Of a DNA stretch of 64,000 bases, positions 12,088 to 43,635 are shown piece after piece. Under the pieces are notes generated by a model. The model saw only the letters and a list, made by a program, of their open reading frames with translations. It was not told the origin of the DNA and did not search any database. Where the stretch lies: contig NZ_CAMFHX010000014.1 in the NCBI RefSeq assembly GCF_945952365.1, forward strand, positions 1 to 64,000, written 5' to 3'. Each line of letters starts with the position of its first letter. Within the stretch, counting starts at the first letter, position 1. This DNA is from an uncultured Cetobacterium sp. (GTDB lineage: Bacteria; Fusobacteriota; Fusobacteriia; Fusobacteriales; Fusobacteriaceae). The translations under genes were made by a program, and so were the position numbers.

Positions 12088-13644
12088 TTAAATCTCCTCT
12101 ATTACTTCAGCTTTTAATTTTATATATAAATCTGTATGTTCTAATCTACTCGATCTACTTTTAAATAAAACTCCAATAGCAGGAATATCTGCTAAAATTG
12201 GAACTTTACTATTTATCTTTTGATCTATTTTTCTTTTTAATCCACCAATTAAAATAATATCGTTATTTTTTATTCTAACTTTTGTTTTTAGTTGCCTAGA
12301 AATTTTAGAGCCACCCTCTGAATTAAATGTCCCTGAATTTTCATCATTTGGTTTAAATGATTTTTTCAATTTAAAATCACTAGCTTCTAAATCCAAGTCT
12401 AGATACACACTATTGTCCTCTTTTATAGATGGTAGTACTTTTAATATTATACCTGCTTCCTTAAATATCGGCCTATAATTTATCGTATCACTACTTGTAT
12501 TTTCCTCTTTATCTTCACCCACAATTACCTCTTCAGTCATCTTTAAAGTTCCTGTTTCTCCATTTAATAATATAATTGATGGCAAAGCATTCACTGTTAA
12601 ATCCTGGGTTGTTTCTAATAAATTTAAAGTTAAATCTAATACATCTTTTCCACTATTAAATTTACTTACAAAATTAATAGAACTCCCCATAATTTCACCT
12701 AACCCATCAATTCCTGTCGAAACTAATGTTTCAAGATATACACCACTATTTTTATTAGACAGTCGCCCTTGACTATCATAAGCCCAATTAAAACCTAAAT
12801 CCTCGAATAGATTCTCTTTTACATCAATAATCTCTGCAGTTACTCTCACCTGTTTTTTTCTTTTATCCAATTGATTTATCAATCTCTTAGCTGAATAAAT
12901 TGCTTCACCATTACCAAAAATTATGATTGAATTATTTCCAGGACTCGTCGAAACTTTCAATTTATCCTCAAAAGTTTCTTTTAAAATCTTTTCTATCTCT
13001 TTATAATTTAAATTTTCTAATAAAATATTTTCTATTATATCATCTTTTTTACTTTTTTGTTCCCTTTCTTGAGCTATATTTTTTATAGGTTTATAATTTT
13101 TTTTCTCAATATAAAAATCAAATCTATTCACACCCTCTTTTATATCTAAAAAATCCCCCTCATATCTATAATCATCTGAAAGTACTGATATAAAATAAGT
13201 GCCTCTAGTTAAACTATCAACTAAATATTCACCATACTCTCCTGATATTGCCTCTAAAGCTTCTCTTCTTTTTAAAATAATTCTAACTCCTTCAACCTCT
13301 CTATTTGTATTTATATCATAAACTCTTCCCACCAACATATCTTTATCCTCAGATTTTCTTCCTCTAAAAATAAAAGTATTTCCACTTTGTATTCTTGTTA
13401 ATCCATAGGTTCTTTCCACTGTTCTTAAAATCTCATCAATTGAAGTACCTTTTTTAAAAAAAACATCTACATTTATATCTTTTATGTATGAATCACCTAT
13501 TAAAGTATATTTGGAATATTTTGATAGATGTGCTAATAAATCTGTGATTGGAACCTCTTTTAAATCTAACTCCTTTGGATAATTTTCTATTGAAAAAGTT
13601 GTTAAGCATATAAAAAGAAATAATATAATTTTCTTAGCCCCCAT
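12088..13644 (-). CDS. GspD/PilQ-type secretin with an inserted regulatory-like domain
   Basis: A 518-residue outer-membrane secretin. Visible in order: signal peptide (1-18), an STN-like domain (about 25-95), a carboxypeptidase-regulatory-like beta-sandwich (about 104-165), a secretin N domain (about 205-270), and the multimerising secretin core (about 330-515) with ILIGGLKRK and VPILADIPAIGVLF. The second domain is unusual for secretins. The ATG overlaps the stop of the GspM-like gene as TAATG after AGGAG, implying translational coupling. It is the last secretion gene of the operon and would form the exit pore. Confidence 0.88.
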   Translation of the reverse strand: MGAKKIILFLFICLTTFSIENYPKELDLKEVPITDLLAHLSKYSKYTLIGDSYIKDINVDVFFKKGTSIDEILRTVERTYGLTRIQSGNTFIFRGRKSEDKDMLVGRVYDINTNREVEGVRIILKRREALEAISGEYGEYLVDSLTRGTYFISVLSDDYRYEGDFLDIKEGVNRFDFYIEKKNYKPIKNIAQEREQKSKKDDIIENILLENLNYKEIEKILKETFEDKLKVSTSPGNNSIIIFGNGEAIYSAKRLINQLDKRKKQVRVTAEIIDVKENLFEDLGFNWAYDSQGRLSNKNSGVYLETLVSTGIDGLGEIMGSSINFVSKFNSGKDVLDLTLNLLETTQDLTVNALPSIILLNGETGTLKMTEEVIVGEDKEENTSSDTINYRPIFKEAGIILKVLPSIKEDNSVYLDLDLEASDFKLKKSFKPNDENSGTFNSEGGSKISRQLKTKVRIKNNDIILIGGLKRKIDQKINSKVPILADIPAIGVLFKSRSSRLEHTDLYIKLKAEVIEEI

Positions 13645-14264
13645 TATAACATTCTCCTTTTCCCTTCAATATTTCTACTTTTTATTTTTTTAAAAATTCC
13701 ATTATTATAGTAATCATAATCCATTTTATTTTTTTTATTATTGATTATATACATAACATTCGCTTTTAAATATAAATCAACCCCATCTGTTTCTAACATT
13801 ATTGAATTCATTTTTAAAGCTATAAATTTTTGTTGTTCTTCCAATTCAGAAATAAAATTATAAACTCCTAACTCACTTCCATATAATTCATAATAAAAAT
13901 TTCCATAAATTTTTCCATCTACCTCTTCTAATACTTCTCTTCCTACAATTTCTAAATTTAAATTATTTTTTTTATTTAAACTGTTCAAATAATCAAGAAC
14001 ATCTTCAGTTCCCTCAAAAATAAAGTCATCATATTCTTTACTCTCTTTTTTAAATTCAATTTTTTCTAACTTTTCATTATACTCTTTCAAAGCTATCTCT
14101 TTTTCTAAAAGAGTTTTTTTTAAACTCTTTTGGATTTGATTCAAACTCTTTTTTTCATGACTTAATTCTTTTAAAGAAATTACTCGATCTATACATATAA
14201 ACAGTATTATTAAATTTATTATCCAATAAATAATTAGTTGTTTATTTAAATTTATTTGTTTTAT
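13644..14264 (-). CDS. GspM/PilO-like inner-membrane assembly protein, apparent ATA start
   Basis: From ATG, GTG or TTG codons alone the protein could only start at TTG 14144, leaving no membrane anchor. The frame stays open upstream and encodes a basic N terminus, a transmembrane helix (LIIYWIINLIILFICI) and a coiled coil, the architecture of PilO/GspM. The best start is ATA at 14264, five bases after GGAG. The periplasmic part ends in a ferredoxin-like PilO fold (GNFYYELYGSELGVYNFISEL). It overlaps the end of the GspL-like gene. The non-standard start is inference. Confidence 0.72.
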   Translation of the reverse strand: MKQINLNKQLIIYWIINLIILFICIDRVISLKELSHEKKSLNQIQKSLKKTLLEKEIALKEYNEKLEKIEFKKESKEYDDFIFEGTEDVLDYLNSLNKKNNLNLEIVGREVLEEVDGKIYGNFYYELYGSELGVYNFISELEEQQKFIALKMNSIMLETDGVDLYLKANVMYIINNKKNKMDYDYYNNGIFKKIKSRNIEGKRRML

Positions 14265-14956
14265 TTTCTCTCCAATTCTATTAAGAAATATAATATCTCC
14301 CCCTCTTTTCTTACAAAATCAAACTTTGAATTATCAATATCTTTAAATCCTGAAATAAATTTTTTTAATTTGGATATATTTTTCATATCTTTTCCAAATC
14401 CCTCTATTTTTATTTTTTTATCTATATATTGAATTTTTTGATATTTTACATCTGATTTTCTAGAAACTTCAGATAGAAAAATTAAATATTCACTCAGATT
14501 ACTTTTTTCAAAAAAAATTATATTCATATCGTTGTCATCTATTTCTAGATTCATTTTCTGATCGAACTCTGTAATTACTTTTCTATAATTCATATTCTCT
14601 TTTTTTAATTCAAAAATTTCATCTCTAAAAACTGAGCTTTTAAAAAAAATAACTCCACATAAAACTAACTCTAAACTTGTTAATAATATCAATATATATT
14701 TAACTTTTTTAGAAATTTTATTAACTTTTTTTAATTTCCATCCAATCTCTTCCACTACATTTTTTATCTCTGACTGAATATCTTCATCTAAAGAGATTAA
14801 AATTTTTAATACAATTATATCAACATTATCGTAAATGGATAGTAAGTCTTTTACTTCAAAAGGAATATCTTCTTTTTCATTAAAAAGACCTTGATTAATT
14901 ACTTCTCCATCTTCAATCAATTTTATTCCTCTATCATTAATCTCTAATATTTTCAT
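14261..14956 (-). CDS. GspL/PilN-like inner-membrane protein
   Basis: About 231 residues: a cytoplasmic N-terminal part beginning MKILEINDRGIKLIEDGEV, which looks like a shortened GspL/PilM actin-like domain, one transmembrane helix (YILILLTSLELVLCGVIFF) and a periplasmic coiled coil plus PilN-like domain. GspL links the secretion ATPase to the pseudopilus. The start is uncertain: 14956 gives the conserved-looking N terminus but a weak ribosome-binding site, and 15016 is an alternative. It overlaps the genes on both sides. Confidence 0.7.
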   Translation of the reverse strand: MKILEINDRGIKLIEDGEVINQGLFNEKEDIPFEVKDLLSIYDNVDIIVLKILISLDEDIQSEIKNVVEEIGWKLKKVNKISKKVKYILILLTSLELVLCGVIFFKSSVFRDEIFELKKENMNYRKVITEFDQKMNLEIDDNDMNIIFFEKSNLSEYLIFLSEVSRKSDVKYQKIQYIDKKIKIEGFGKDMKNISKLKKFISGFKDIDNSKFDFVRKEGEILYFLIELERK

Positions 14957-15497
14957 ATTTGATTTTTGCCTCAACTCCTCTAATCTCTCTTTTATTACTT
15001 TTAGAAAAATCTCCATCTGGTTTCAAATATTCATAATAAATATCCACTACTATTTCTATTTTCTTTGCTTCTATTTCAATCTCTTTTACAAGCTTTATCT
15101 CTAATATATTCATCATCATAGGAGTCAAAATTACCTCACCTGAAATAAGCTTTTTGTTTTGTATTAAACTTTCTCTCTTATAACCGCTTTTGGATATCAG
15201 ATTAGGTTTTATCCAAATTAAACTCTCATCTTCAAAATATTCAATAATATCTTTATATTCATTTAACTTTATCGCTTTATCACCTTTAAATAGTTCATAT
15301 TCTGCAATCGTAGATATATTCTCCAACTCCCAATAGATATCATTTGAGGATTTTAAAGCTTGAATCTCATTTACTTCAGCTTTATAAAATAATAAAGTAA
15401 TCGAAAACATCCATAAAAGGAGTGAAATTATTAATAAAACTAATGGTAATACCATACCTTTATTCCTTAAGTTCTTTTCTATATTCTTTTTTAAAAT
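14937..15497 (-). CDS. GspK-like minor pseudopilin, apparent ATT start
   Basis: The first ATG (15455) would begin the protein at MVLPLVLLIISLLLW, the hydrophobic pseudopilin helix, with no leader. Reading the same frame upstream adds 14 codons that spell a classic prepilin leader, LKKNIEKNLRNKG, ending in the glycine cleaved by prepilin peptidase. These begin at ATT 15497, which has GGAGG six bases upstream. The mature protein lacks Glu5, as GspK does. At about 172 residues it is far shorter than usual GspK (around 300), so the large alpha domain is missing. Confidence 0.72.
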   Translation of the reverse strand: MLKKNIEKNLRNKGMVLPLVLLIISLLLWMFSITLLFYKAEVNEIQALKSSNDIYWELENISTIAEYELFKGDKAIKLNEYKDIIEYFEDESLIWIKPNLISKSGYKRESLIQNKKLISGEVILTPMMMNILEIKLVKEIEIEAKKIEIVVDIYYEYLKPDGDFSKSNKREIRGVEAKIKYENIRD

Positions 15498-17192: not shown

Positions 17193-18215
17193 CTAGATTT
17201 CTAATAAATCACCCATATTTAAAATTGGTAAATACAATCCTACAACAAAAATACTTATAATTACTCCTATTATCAATAATAAAATTGGTTCAATTAATTT
17301 CAGGATAATTTTTATTCTTTTATTCAACTCCTCCTCTCTTACTAAAGCTATCTCTTTTAAAATAAGTGGAACTGTACCACTCTCTTCACCAATCTTAACC
17401 ATATCAATCTCTTCTAAAGAAAAAACCTCTAACTTTTTTAAGCAACTTGAAAGTACCTCCCCTTTTTTTATATTTTTTAATATATAAATTCTATTTCTAA
17501 AAAAACCTTTATCTAAGTTTTCTAAAATAATATCAACCGCTTTATCTATTGATATTCCTGATTCTAAAAGTAACGCTAGATTATCCAAAATACTTATTAT
17601 ATACTTTTCAATTAAAAATTTTCGAATTAAGGAGTTTTTATATAATAATTTTTTTATTTTTTCTGATTTTAAGCCAAAAAAAACTACACAAATATAAATA
17701 GGTATCGTGTAGGGATATTTTGACAATATATATTTAATTTTTAAAATAAATTTTGTTATCAATGGTAATTCATTTTGATTTAGAGAATAAACCGACTCAA
17801 AGTTTGGAACTATAAAATAAAAAATAAAAAGAATTATTATTGTTGATATAACTAAAATAAAAATTGGATAAGACAGTGCAATTTTTATTTCGTTATTTAA
17901 CTTTTCTTTTTTCTCTTTCATTTTTGAAATCTTTAAAAATCCGTCGCCCATTCTTCCTATATTTTCAGAAACATAGATTATTAAAAGCTCTCTCTCTTTT
18001 AATAAATTTTCATCTTTCAATATAGAGTATATATTCTCTCCTTTCTCTAATCTTTCACAGAAATTTAAAATTTTAGATTTTAATATTGGATTTTTCGAAC
18101 TATTCTTTTGAAATTCAATTGCTTTTTTTAAAGAGATTCCAGCATTTAATAATCTTCCAATTCTCAAATACAAATTTTGTAAATCTTTATCCTTTATTTT
18201 TTTCTTTATAATCAT
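17193..18215 (-). CDS. GspF/PilC-type inner-membrane platform protein
   Basis: About 340 residues with two repeated GspF domains (about 15-135 and 205-325) and three hydrophobic segments, near residues 112-135, 160-180 and 305-330. It anchors the secretion/pilus motor in the inner membrane and couples to the ATPase. The start is ATG 18215, eight bases after AGAGAG, so it overlaps the ATPase stop by four bases. Confidence 0.88.
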   Translation of the reverse strand: MIIKKKIKDKDLQNLYLRIGRLLNAGISLKKAIEFQKNSSKNPILKSKILNFCERLEKGENIYSILKDENLLKERELLIIYVSENIGRMGDGFLKISKMKEKKEKLNNEIKIALSYPIFILVISTIIILFIFYFIVPNFESVYSLNQNELPLITKFILKIKYILSKYPYTIPIYICVVFFGLKSEKIKKLLYKNSLIRKFLIEKYIISILDNLALLLESGISIDKAVDIILENLDKGFFRNRIYILKNIKKGEVLSSCLKKLEVFSLEEIDMVKIGEESGTVPLILKEIALVREEELNKRIKIILKLIEPILLLIIGVIISIFVVGLYLPILNMGDLLEI

Positions 18216-19357
18216 ATAAAGCACTCTCTTACAACTTCTTCTTTAGTTGTTATACCATGCTCAACTTTTGAAAGACCATTCTCTAAAAGATTTTTAAATC
18301 CACTTTCTTTTAAATACTCTTTTAGCTCTTTCGTTGATCTATACAGTATTAAATCTCTAACTTCTTTATCAAAAAAAATTATTTCTTCAACAGCCTCTCT
18401 ACCTATAAAACCATCATTACAGCATTCTTCTCCTTTTCTTCCTTTACAAATAGAACATATTTTTCTAACTAAACGTTGACTTTCTATAGCTGTTATTGCT
18501 GTAGCTATTATAAATTTATCTATTCCAAAATTTATAAGTCTATCTATCGCTGTTAAAGAATCAATCGTATGAAGAGTACTAATAACCAAATGACCAGTTA
18601 AAGAAGCCATTAGGGCTATTTCTGCAGTCTCTTTGTCTCTTATCTCTCCAACTAAAATTATATCTGGATCTTGTCTTAAAACACTTCTCAATATTACTGA
18701 GAAGTCCAGCCCTATTTCATTTTTACATTGAATTTGATTTATATCTGAAAATTGATACTCTATTGGGTCCTCTATTGTTATTATATTAAGATTTTCATTT
18801 TCTAAATAGTTAACTATAGAGTAAAGAGTTGTTGTTTTTCCACTTCCAGTTGGACCACAAAATAAAAGTAATCCACTTTTTTTCTTTAATAATTCTTGGA
18901 TTTTTACTAAATTCTCTGTTGAAAAACCCAAGTTCTCTATCAATAAATCAGAAACATTATTTTTTAATAGACGTATTACTACTCTTTCTCCAAATATTGT
19001 TGGCGTTATTGAAACTCTAAAATCTATTTTTTGTTCATTGAACTGGCCTTTAAATCTTCCATCTTGAGGTAATCGTTTCTCTCCTATATCAAGTTCACTC
19101 AACAGTTTTATTTTAGTTATAAGCCTAACACCCAAATTTTTTTCTATATCTTCATAGTTTTTAAGATACCCATCTATTCTAATCCTTATTTTTACACTAT
19201 TTTCTTTTGATTCTATGTGAATATCAGAGGCTCTTTCTCTTATACTCTTTAGGATAAGAATATTCAATATTTCAGCTATATCCTCTCTATTGTATTTTAA
19301 ATCTTTTGATTCTTTTATTTCTAAAACATCTCTTTTAAAATAAATTTCTTCACTCAT
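18212..19357 (-). CDS. GspE/PilB-type secretion ATPase, compact form
   Basis: A 381-residue hexameric ATPase that powers pseudopilus assembly. Walker A is GPTGSGKTT, the Asp box/Walker B region is LVGEIRDKETAEIAL, and the His box is TGHLVISTLHT. A C-terminal zinc-binding cysteine cluster (CSICKGRKGEECC) is retained. Full-length GspE/PilB is about 550 residues; here the N-terminal MshEN/N1E domain is missing. The ATG directly follows the stop of a 49-codon open frame. Confidence 0.92.
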   Translation of the reverse strand: MSEEIYFKRDVLEIKESKDLKYNREDIAEILNILILKSIRERASDIHIESKENSVKIRIRIDGYLKNYEDIEKNLGVRLITKIKLLSELDIGEKRLPQDGRFKGQFNEQKIDFRVSITPTIFGERVVIRLLKNNVSDLLIENLGFSTENLVKIQELLKKKSGLLLFCGPTGSGKTTTLYSIVNYLENENLNIITIEDPIEYQFSDINQIQCKNEIGLDFSVILRSVLRQDPDIILVGEIRDKETAEIALMASLTGHLVISTLHTIDSLTAIDRLINFGIDKFIIATAITAIESQRLVRKICSICKGRKGEECCNDGFIGREAVEEIIFFDKEVRDLILYRSTKELKEYLKESGFKNLLENGLSKVEHGITTKEEVVRECFI

Positions 19358-32621: not shown

Positions 32622-32712
32622 AAACCATCAAGAGAGACCGAGGGACTGGCCCGTCGACGTTTCAGCAACCTACCAAAGAGTGTGGTGCTAATTCCAGAAA
32701 GATGGGAGAGGT
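32622..32712 (+). promoter_or_regulatory. SAM-I (S-box) riboswitch
   Basis: The S-box core is recognisable: CAAGAGAGACCGAGGGACTG, the GGCCC, the CAGCAACC and the GGTGCTAATTCC elements. P1 is CCATC (32625-32629) with GATGG (32701-32705). SAM binding should expose the downstream terminator and shut off methionine import when SAM is plentiful. Confidence 0.95.
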
Positions 32713-43451: not shown

Positions 43452-43466
43452 TACTTATAAAGAAGA

Positions 43467-43635
43467 GTAATGGTTCTATAGATTAAAAGGGAATTGAGTG
43501 TAACTCTCAAACGGTCCCGCCACTGTATAGAGGATGAAAATAGTGATACCACTGAAACCAAAGTTTTGGGAAGGGCTATTAGTAGGATGAATCTAAGTCA
43601 GGAGACCTGCCATTATTAATAATTCTGCGAGGACG
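43467..43635 (+). promoter_or_regulatory. Cobalamin riboswitch
   Basis: The conserved elements appear in order: AAAGGGAA, the CGGTCCCGCCACTGT segment, GGAAGGGC, and the B12-box AGTCAGGAGACCTGCC (43597-43612). Cobalamin binding should reduce expression of cbiK and the importer. Confidence 0.95.

Follow-up and report, generated by a model that had tools for sequence, protein, structure and literature searches.

Conserved non-AUG start codons are rare, and they usually mean that a protein is produced at a low rate. The classic example is the AUU start of infC, the gene for IF3. In Staphylococcus aureus, retapamulin ribosome profiling (Ribo-Ret) combined with reporters revealed AUA or AUU starts at infC (AUA), ccpN (AUA), cvfC1 (AUU) and citZ (AUA). 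Conserved starts of this kind with an extended Shine-Dalgarno (SD) sequence are reported to work at about 10-30% of the level of AUG, and an extended SD and conservation are described for ccpN and cvfC1 (PMC13009471). In Escherichia coli, expression of pcnB is limited by an inefficient AUU start, as cited in PMC9410913. Conserved AUA and AUU starts are otherwise rarely documented in bacteria, and the printed cases that we found are regulatory or housekeeping genes. Among the open-access papers searched, we found no report of a non-AUG start in a type II secretion system (T2SS) gene and none on the T2SS of Cetobacterium.

Cetobacterium is a fish-gut bacterium. We analyzed a 64,000-nucleotide stretch of DNA from an uncultured member of this genus (hereafter the window), whose genome assembly is 98.7% complete in 61 contigs. 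An earlier sequence-only reading had proposed that a GspM/PilO-like gene in the window starts at an ATA codon. Here we present evidence that gspM, which encodes an inner-membrane component of a T2SS-like machine, in this genus very probably starts at an isoleucine codon within gspL, at a position different from the one first proposed.

Results

A GspM/PilO-like gene in a gsp-like operon

The features of the window on which the analysis rests are as follows.
12088-13644, minus strand: gspD-like secretin gene starting with ATG (Secretin PF00263, E 3.5e-34).
13644-14291, minus strand: gspM/pilO-like gene, with AUA 14291-14289 as proposed start and 215 codons plus stop; homologues align from this Ile onward.
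14289-14291, minus strand: proposed AUA start codon of gspM, at a conserved Ile column and with the best SD among in-frame near-cognate codons.
14299-14306, minus strand: SD sequence AGAGGGGG, 7 nt before the gspM AUA.
14262-14264, minus strand: ATA put forward by the sequence-only reading, rejected here as the main start (SD -8.1 kcal/mol; present in 2/12 genomes).
14261-14956, minus strand: gspL-like gene, starting at ATG 14956; its last 31 nt overlap gspM.
14937-15497, minus strand: gspK-like prepilin gene, probably starting at AUU 15497-15495.
18212-19357, minus strand: gspE-like ATPase gene, also in this operon, starting with ATG (T2SSE PF00437, E 2.8e-113).

The product of gspM matched no Pfam family at E <= 0.1 and had only an unrelated weak match in NCBIfam; neither collection gave anything useful for gspL or gspK. 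Since family profiles are not matched, the protein is named GspM/PilO-like on the basis of its fold and context. In its AlphaFold model (pLDDT 76.6), a long helix at the N terminus leads into a ferredoxin-like domain. The model matches PilO (2rjz; Z 13.2, rmsd 2.4, 95 residues aligned) and also PulM (8a9x; Z 8.8) and EpsM (1uv7; Z 8.3), which bears out the identity that the sequence-only reading had assigned. The gene adjoins gspL in a gsp-like operon. The model of GspL (pLDDT 82.4) in turn matches PulL (5hl8; Z 11.4), XcpY (6ghu; Z 10.8) and also EpsL through its periplasmic domain. The operon further encodes GspD-, GspE-, GspF- and GspG-like proteins, a prepilin peptidase and pseudopilin-like proteins. 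At 381 aa, the GspE-like ATPase is short. It aligns with the 486-position GspE profile only from position 89 onward and thus seems to lack the usual N-terminal domain. Elsewhere in the window, Rfam identified cobalamin and SAM riboswitches at 43454-43628 (+) and 32622-32708 (+).

An Ile codon occupies the probable start position of gspM at all readable Cetobacterium junctions

The gspM frame opens after an in-frame TGA and continues for 224 codons to its end at 13644. As had been noted from the sequence, it contains no ATG, GTG or TTG ahead of the hydrophobic helix; the first such codon is TTG 14144 at codon 59, downstream of the helix. TTG 14144 was rejected as the gspM start because it would remove the helix.

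We compared the junction between gspL and gspM in 12 Cetobacterium genomes. A gspM match was found in ten of them, and an eleventh, G002, has its junction at a contig end with the tail of gspM on a separate contig. No gspM was found in G005, which is 67% complete; hence 11 of the 12 junctions were readable. All 11 carry an Ile codon at the column of position 14291, which is ATA in eight (G000, G001, G002, G003, G004, G007, G008 and G009) and ATT in three (G006, G010 and G011). This column lies right after the SD and, in 10/11, three codons past Arg-Gly-Gly in the gspM frame. Nine of the 11 junctions have no ATG, GTG or TTG ahead of the helix, and in G007 the first such codon is codon 177. That a normal start is absent again and again across the genus points to more than chance. 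The two exceptions are G010, with a TTG nine codons past the Ile column and an SD of only -3.7 kcal/mol, and G011, with an ATG 14 codons past that column, at the helix edge, and an SD of only -2.1 kcal/mol.

The same column was examined in a sister genus. The junction in genome G013 reads GGAGGGG-ATTTTGA-ATA-TTT-GAT-AGA, with the TGA in the gspM frame directly before the ATA and no ATG, GTG or TTG before codon 73. Since the TGA immediately precedes the ATA, nothing upstream in frame is usable as a start. With G013 included, 12/12 genomes have ATA or ATT at this column. In a second sister-genus genome, G012 (loci L047 and L076), the column reads GTT, with no ATG, GTG or TTG before codon 49, and the GspL codons at this place are AAG for Lys and then TTT for Phe. 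The GTT could represent a GUU start, another mechanism or a sequence error. Apart from G010, G011 and G012, the Ile codon stands at the only conserved start position and no usable normal start accompanies it.

We consider it highly probable that gspM starts at ATA 14291, inside gspL. The proposal of ATA initiation in the sequence-only reading thus gains support, while the codon it singled out, ATA 14264, was the wrong one. The sequences directly give the codon, its spacing, its conservation, the overlap with gspL and the fold; initiation at AUA 14291 and its efficiency are inferred.

Homologues in five other genera start with ATG

When the GspM alignment was run as a profile against the phylum, 39 of 98 genomes matched, and a profile scan at the contig level returned three loci, all from uncultured Cetobacterium. 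The 26 homologues from genera g3, g4, g5, g10 and g14 all have an ordinary ATG soon after the frame opens. Relatives with a normal start, which the sequence-only reading had named as evidence against its proposal, do exist, then, but only in these other genera. In a GspE tree of 26 rows, Cetobacterium and g2 group together (100/99), the ATG-using g5 comes next (92/92), and G012 forms a long branch. The simplest reading is that the non-AUG start of gspM arose once, before the split of Cetobacterium and its sister lineage. Translation of gspM from AUA or AUU was probably already present in their common ancestor.

A strong Shine-Dalgarno sequence precedes the Ile codon

In the window, AGAGGGGG forms a duplex of -11.4 kcal/mol with the 16S tail CCUCCUUUCU. 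No 16S match was found in the window's own assembly, and the tail (ACCUCCUUUCU) was read from six loci in three genomes of the genus. The duplex energy at the Ile codon is -11.4 kcal/mol in nine genomes, -15.5 in G011, -9.2 in G009 and -10.5 in G013, such that a strong or extended SD lies at a proper spacing in every case (-9.2 to -15.5 kcal/mol). The motif GAGGGGG is kept in 10/11 Cetobacterium genomes and reads GAGGTGG in G009. The codon at the Ile column has the best SD of all in-frame near-cognate codons in 12/12 genomes, although in G011 the following codon equals it. The two gspM-frame codons between the SD and the Ile codon are unconserved, as expected for a spacer.

Several comparisons were used to judge this strength. 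An SD of -11.4 kcal/mol or better is found at gspM in 10/11 Cetobacterium genomes versus 8/80 starts among eight further genes in these operons, where the start was taken as the first ATG after a stop, a choice that is wrong for at least the gspK of the window. Among ATA and ATT triplets elsewhere in gspL, 8/727 reach -9 kcal/mol or better. The 26 ATG-starting homologues of the five other genera have weaker SD sequences, with a median of -6.05 versus -11.4 kcal/mol (Mann-Whitney, 12 vs 26, p 4.6e-7), a comparison that ignores relatedness and the strength of SD sequences across the genus. The latter matters: the 33 ATG genes of the window have a median SD of -9.1 kcal/mol, and two reach -11.4, so SD sequences in this genus are fairly strong in general, which counts against the argument from strength. 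Nor is the SD score a general start finder, since it fails to rank the known ATG of gspL best in 10/11 genomes.

The SD is also part of the gspL coding sequence. The Gly codon beneath it is GGG in 10/11 genomes, though GGG makes up only 7.9% of the Gly codons in the window. When gspL was shuffled synonymously, an equal or better SD arose in 15-18% of trials for eight of the 12 genomes, including the window, and in 46%, 83%, 6% and 3% for G004, G009, G013 and G011, respectively. Because shuffled sequences often match the real one, the SD is in part a by-product of the GspL residues Lys-Lys-Glu-Gly, and this test by itself shows no selection for the SD in the 12 genomes.

The overlap with gspL may constrain the start codon

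The overlap of gspL and gspM measures 31 nt in 11/11 Cetobacterium genomes and 28 nt in G013. The proposed gspM start codon takes its first base from the third position of gspL codon 222 and its other two bases from the beginning of codon 223, counted from ATG 14956. This second GspL codon specifies Tyr in the genomes with an ATA start; in those with ATT it specifies Phe (G006, G010) or, as UUA, Leu (G011). In the GspL model, the residue belongs to the final beta strand (residues 221-230). An AUG start would need a GspL codon beginning with UG and therefore Cys or Trp at this place. As Tyr or Phe in GspL fixes two of the three bases, conservation of the column is confounded by gspL coding. The first base of the start codon is A in 12/12 genomes, for which the chance by codon usage is about 0.003 with no correction for relatedness. 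The junctions of several species (L066-L070) contain A AAA AAA and U UUU UU(A/G) near the end of gspL.

Alternative explanations

The first alternative is that GspM exists solely as a GspL-GspM fusion that arises by -1 slippage, ribosomal or transcriptional, toward the 3' end of gspL. The gspM frame is indeed -1 relative to gspL, and the GAGAGAAAATAA at which the sequence-only reading placed a possible frameshift is present at the end of the gspL-like gene. Furthermore, 8/12 genomes have a canonical slippery heptamer open to the gspM frame, either A AAA AAA about 20 nt before the Ile codon or U UUU UU(A/G) just after it. However, no X XXY YYZ heptamer open to that frame exists in the remaining 4/12 (the window, G010, G011 and G013), so that the site is not conserved and a frameshift at GAGAGAAAATAA is not supported; the A runs also follow from Lys-Lys in the gspL frame. 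In G013, any product of a shift upstream of the Ile codon would terminate at the TGA immediately preceding that codon, and no slippery site was found beyond it. A fusion would in addition place the basic N-terminal tail and helix of GspM after a periplasmic domain, against the well-known positive-inside rule. We regard this explanation as very unlikely. A GspL-GspM fusion could be made at a low level in some species, but it is not the conserved feature.

The second is initiation at ATA 14264, 27 nt downstream of ATA 14291, by termination-reinitiation at the overlapping gspL stop. This codon is preceded by GGAG five bases upstream, just as the sequence-only reading had described (dG -8.1 kcal/mol), and the ATAA resembles the common ATGA junction. 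Yet its SD is weaker than that at 14291, and among the 11 Cetobacterium genomes and G013 the column reads ATA only in G000 and G003, most relatives having no start-like codon there. It is most improbable that this is the main start. Nor do we give much credence to the use of both AUA 14291 and a downstream codon, resulting in two forms of GspM: the window does offer ATA 14264 and also ATA 14255 (SD -6.4 kcal/mol), but the downstream codons are not conserved. Finally, a sequencing error or gene decay by which the window lost its normal start, suggested only by a missing start in one draft genome, can be dismissed, because the same architecture with intact reading frames recurs in 11 Cetobacterium genomes whose GspM proteins are down to 24-29% identical.

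Other probable non-AUG starts in gspK and infC

Initiation at AUA 14291 may not be the only unusual start in the operon. In the window, ATG 15455 of gspK encodes residue +1 of the mature pseudopilin (NKG/MVLPLVLL) and so cannot be the start codon. Upstream is an in-frame TAA at 15515-15513 followed by GGAGGGG-TTCT-ATT, where the SD at 15508-15502 has a dG of -9.5 kcal/mol and a gap of 4; an AAG three codons later scores equally. The context suggests that gspK probably starts at AUU 15497. G004 has the same ATT context plus upstream ATGs with weak SD sequences, and nine other Cetobacterium species start gspK with ATG. The expectation of two non-standard starts in one operon is therefore probably correct, the second, which had not been named, being most likely this ATT.

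The infC gene of Cetobacterium also lacks an ATG. It reads GGAGGTGTCT-ATT-ATT in 11/11 matches (L077-L087; L082 in the genome of the window). As the AUU start of infC in this genus comes with a strong SD, Cetobacterium seems to make use of non-AUG starts at Ile codons.

Discussion

We propose that gspM is translated from an Ile codon, AUA or in some species AUU, 31 nt inside the end of gspL. The extended SD, written in the GspL codons for Lys-Glu-Gly, would set the 30S subunit on this codon. The initiator tRNA would then pair through a wobble mismatch, as is familiar for this tRNA, and GspM should begin with (formyl)methionine. The overlap with gspL would hold the weak codon in place, UAY (Tyr) giving AUA, and UUY (Phe) or, in one species, UUA (Leu) giving AUU, and the strong SD would partly offset its weakness. 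The overlap may act as an evolutionary lock on gspM, and initiation at this codon may be subject to discrimination by IF3, whose general behavior is well established.

A broader model would be that the weak starts, namely AUA or AUU at gspM, AUU at gspK in the window and AUU at infC, make the secretion machine answer to IF3 and the growth state, with GspM as the limiting platform subunit and a gspL overlap that has kept the codon weak since before the split from the sister lineage. We consider this model doubtful as a whole. If initiation at AUA 14291 holds true, gspM adds a secretion-machine gene in another phylum to the known cases, with a start that lies inside, and is apparently fixed by, the upstream gene. 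The alternation of AUA and AUU, which tracks Tyr versus Phe or Leu in GspL, would form a natural series in which to ask to what extent a strong SD substitutes for AUG. Start finders limited to ATG, GTG and TTG would predict this membrane protein too short or overlook it.

Compared with known systems, the protein resembles the GspM and PilO proteins of T2SS and type IV pili in its long N-terminal helix, its ferredoxin-like domain and the position of its gene beside gspL. It differs from the other homologues found in the family Fusobacteriaceae, which start with ATG (26/26). With infC (AUU in E. coli, AUA in S. aureus; PMC13009471 and PMC9410913), gspM shares a conserved Ile start and a strong SD; unlike infC, which is autoregulated by its own product, it codes for a platform protein in the membrane, and its proposed start lies within a different gene. 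The pcnB gene lies outside any secretion operon. The ccpN, cvfC1 and citZ genes of S. aureus likewise have AUA or AUU starts, but they belong to Firmicutes and serve other functions, and the passages on them in PMC13009471 mention no start codon that an overlapping gene holds in place. Judged by analogy, the closest precedent for gspM is the group of conserved AUA and AUU starts with an extended SD, represented by infC, ccpN and cvfC1.
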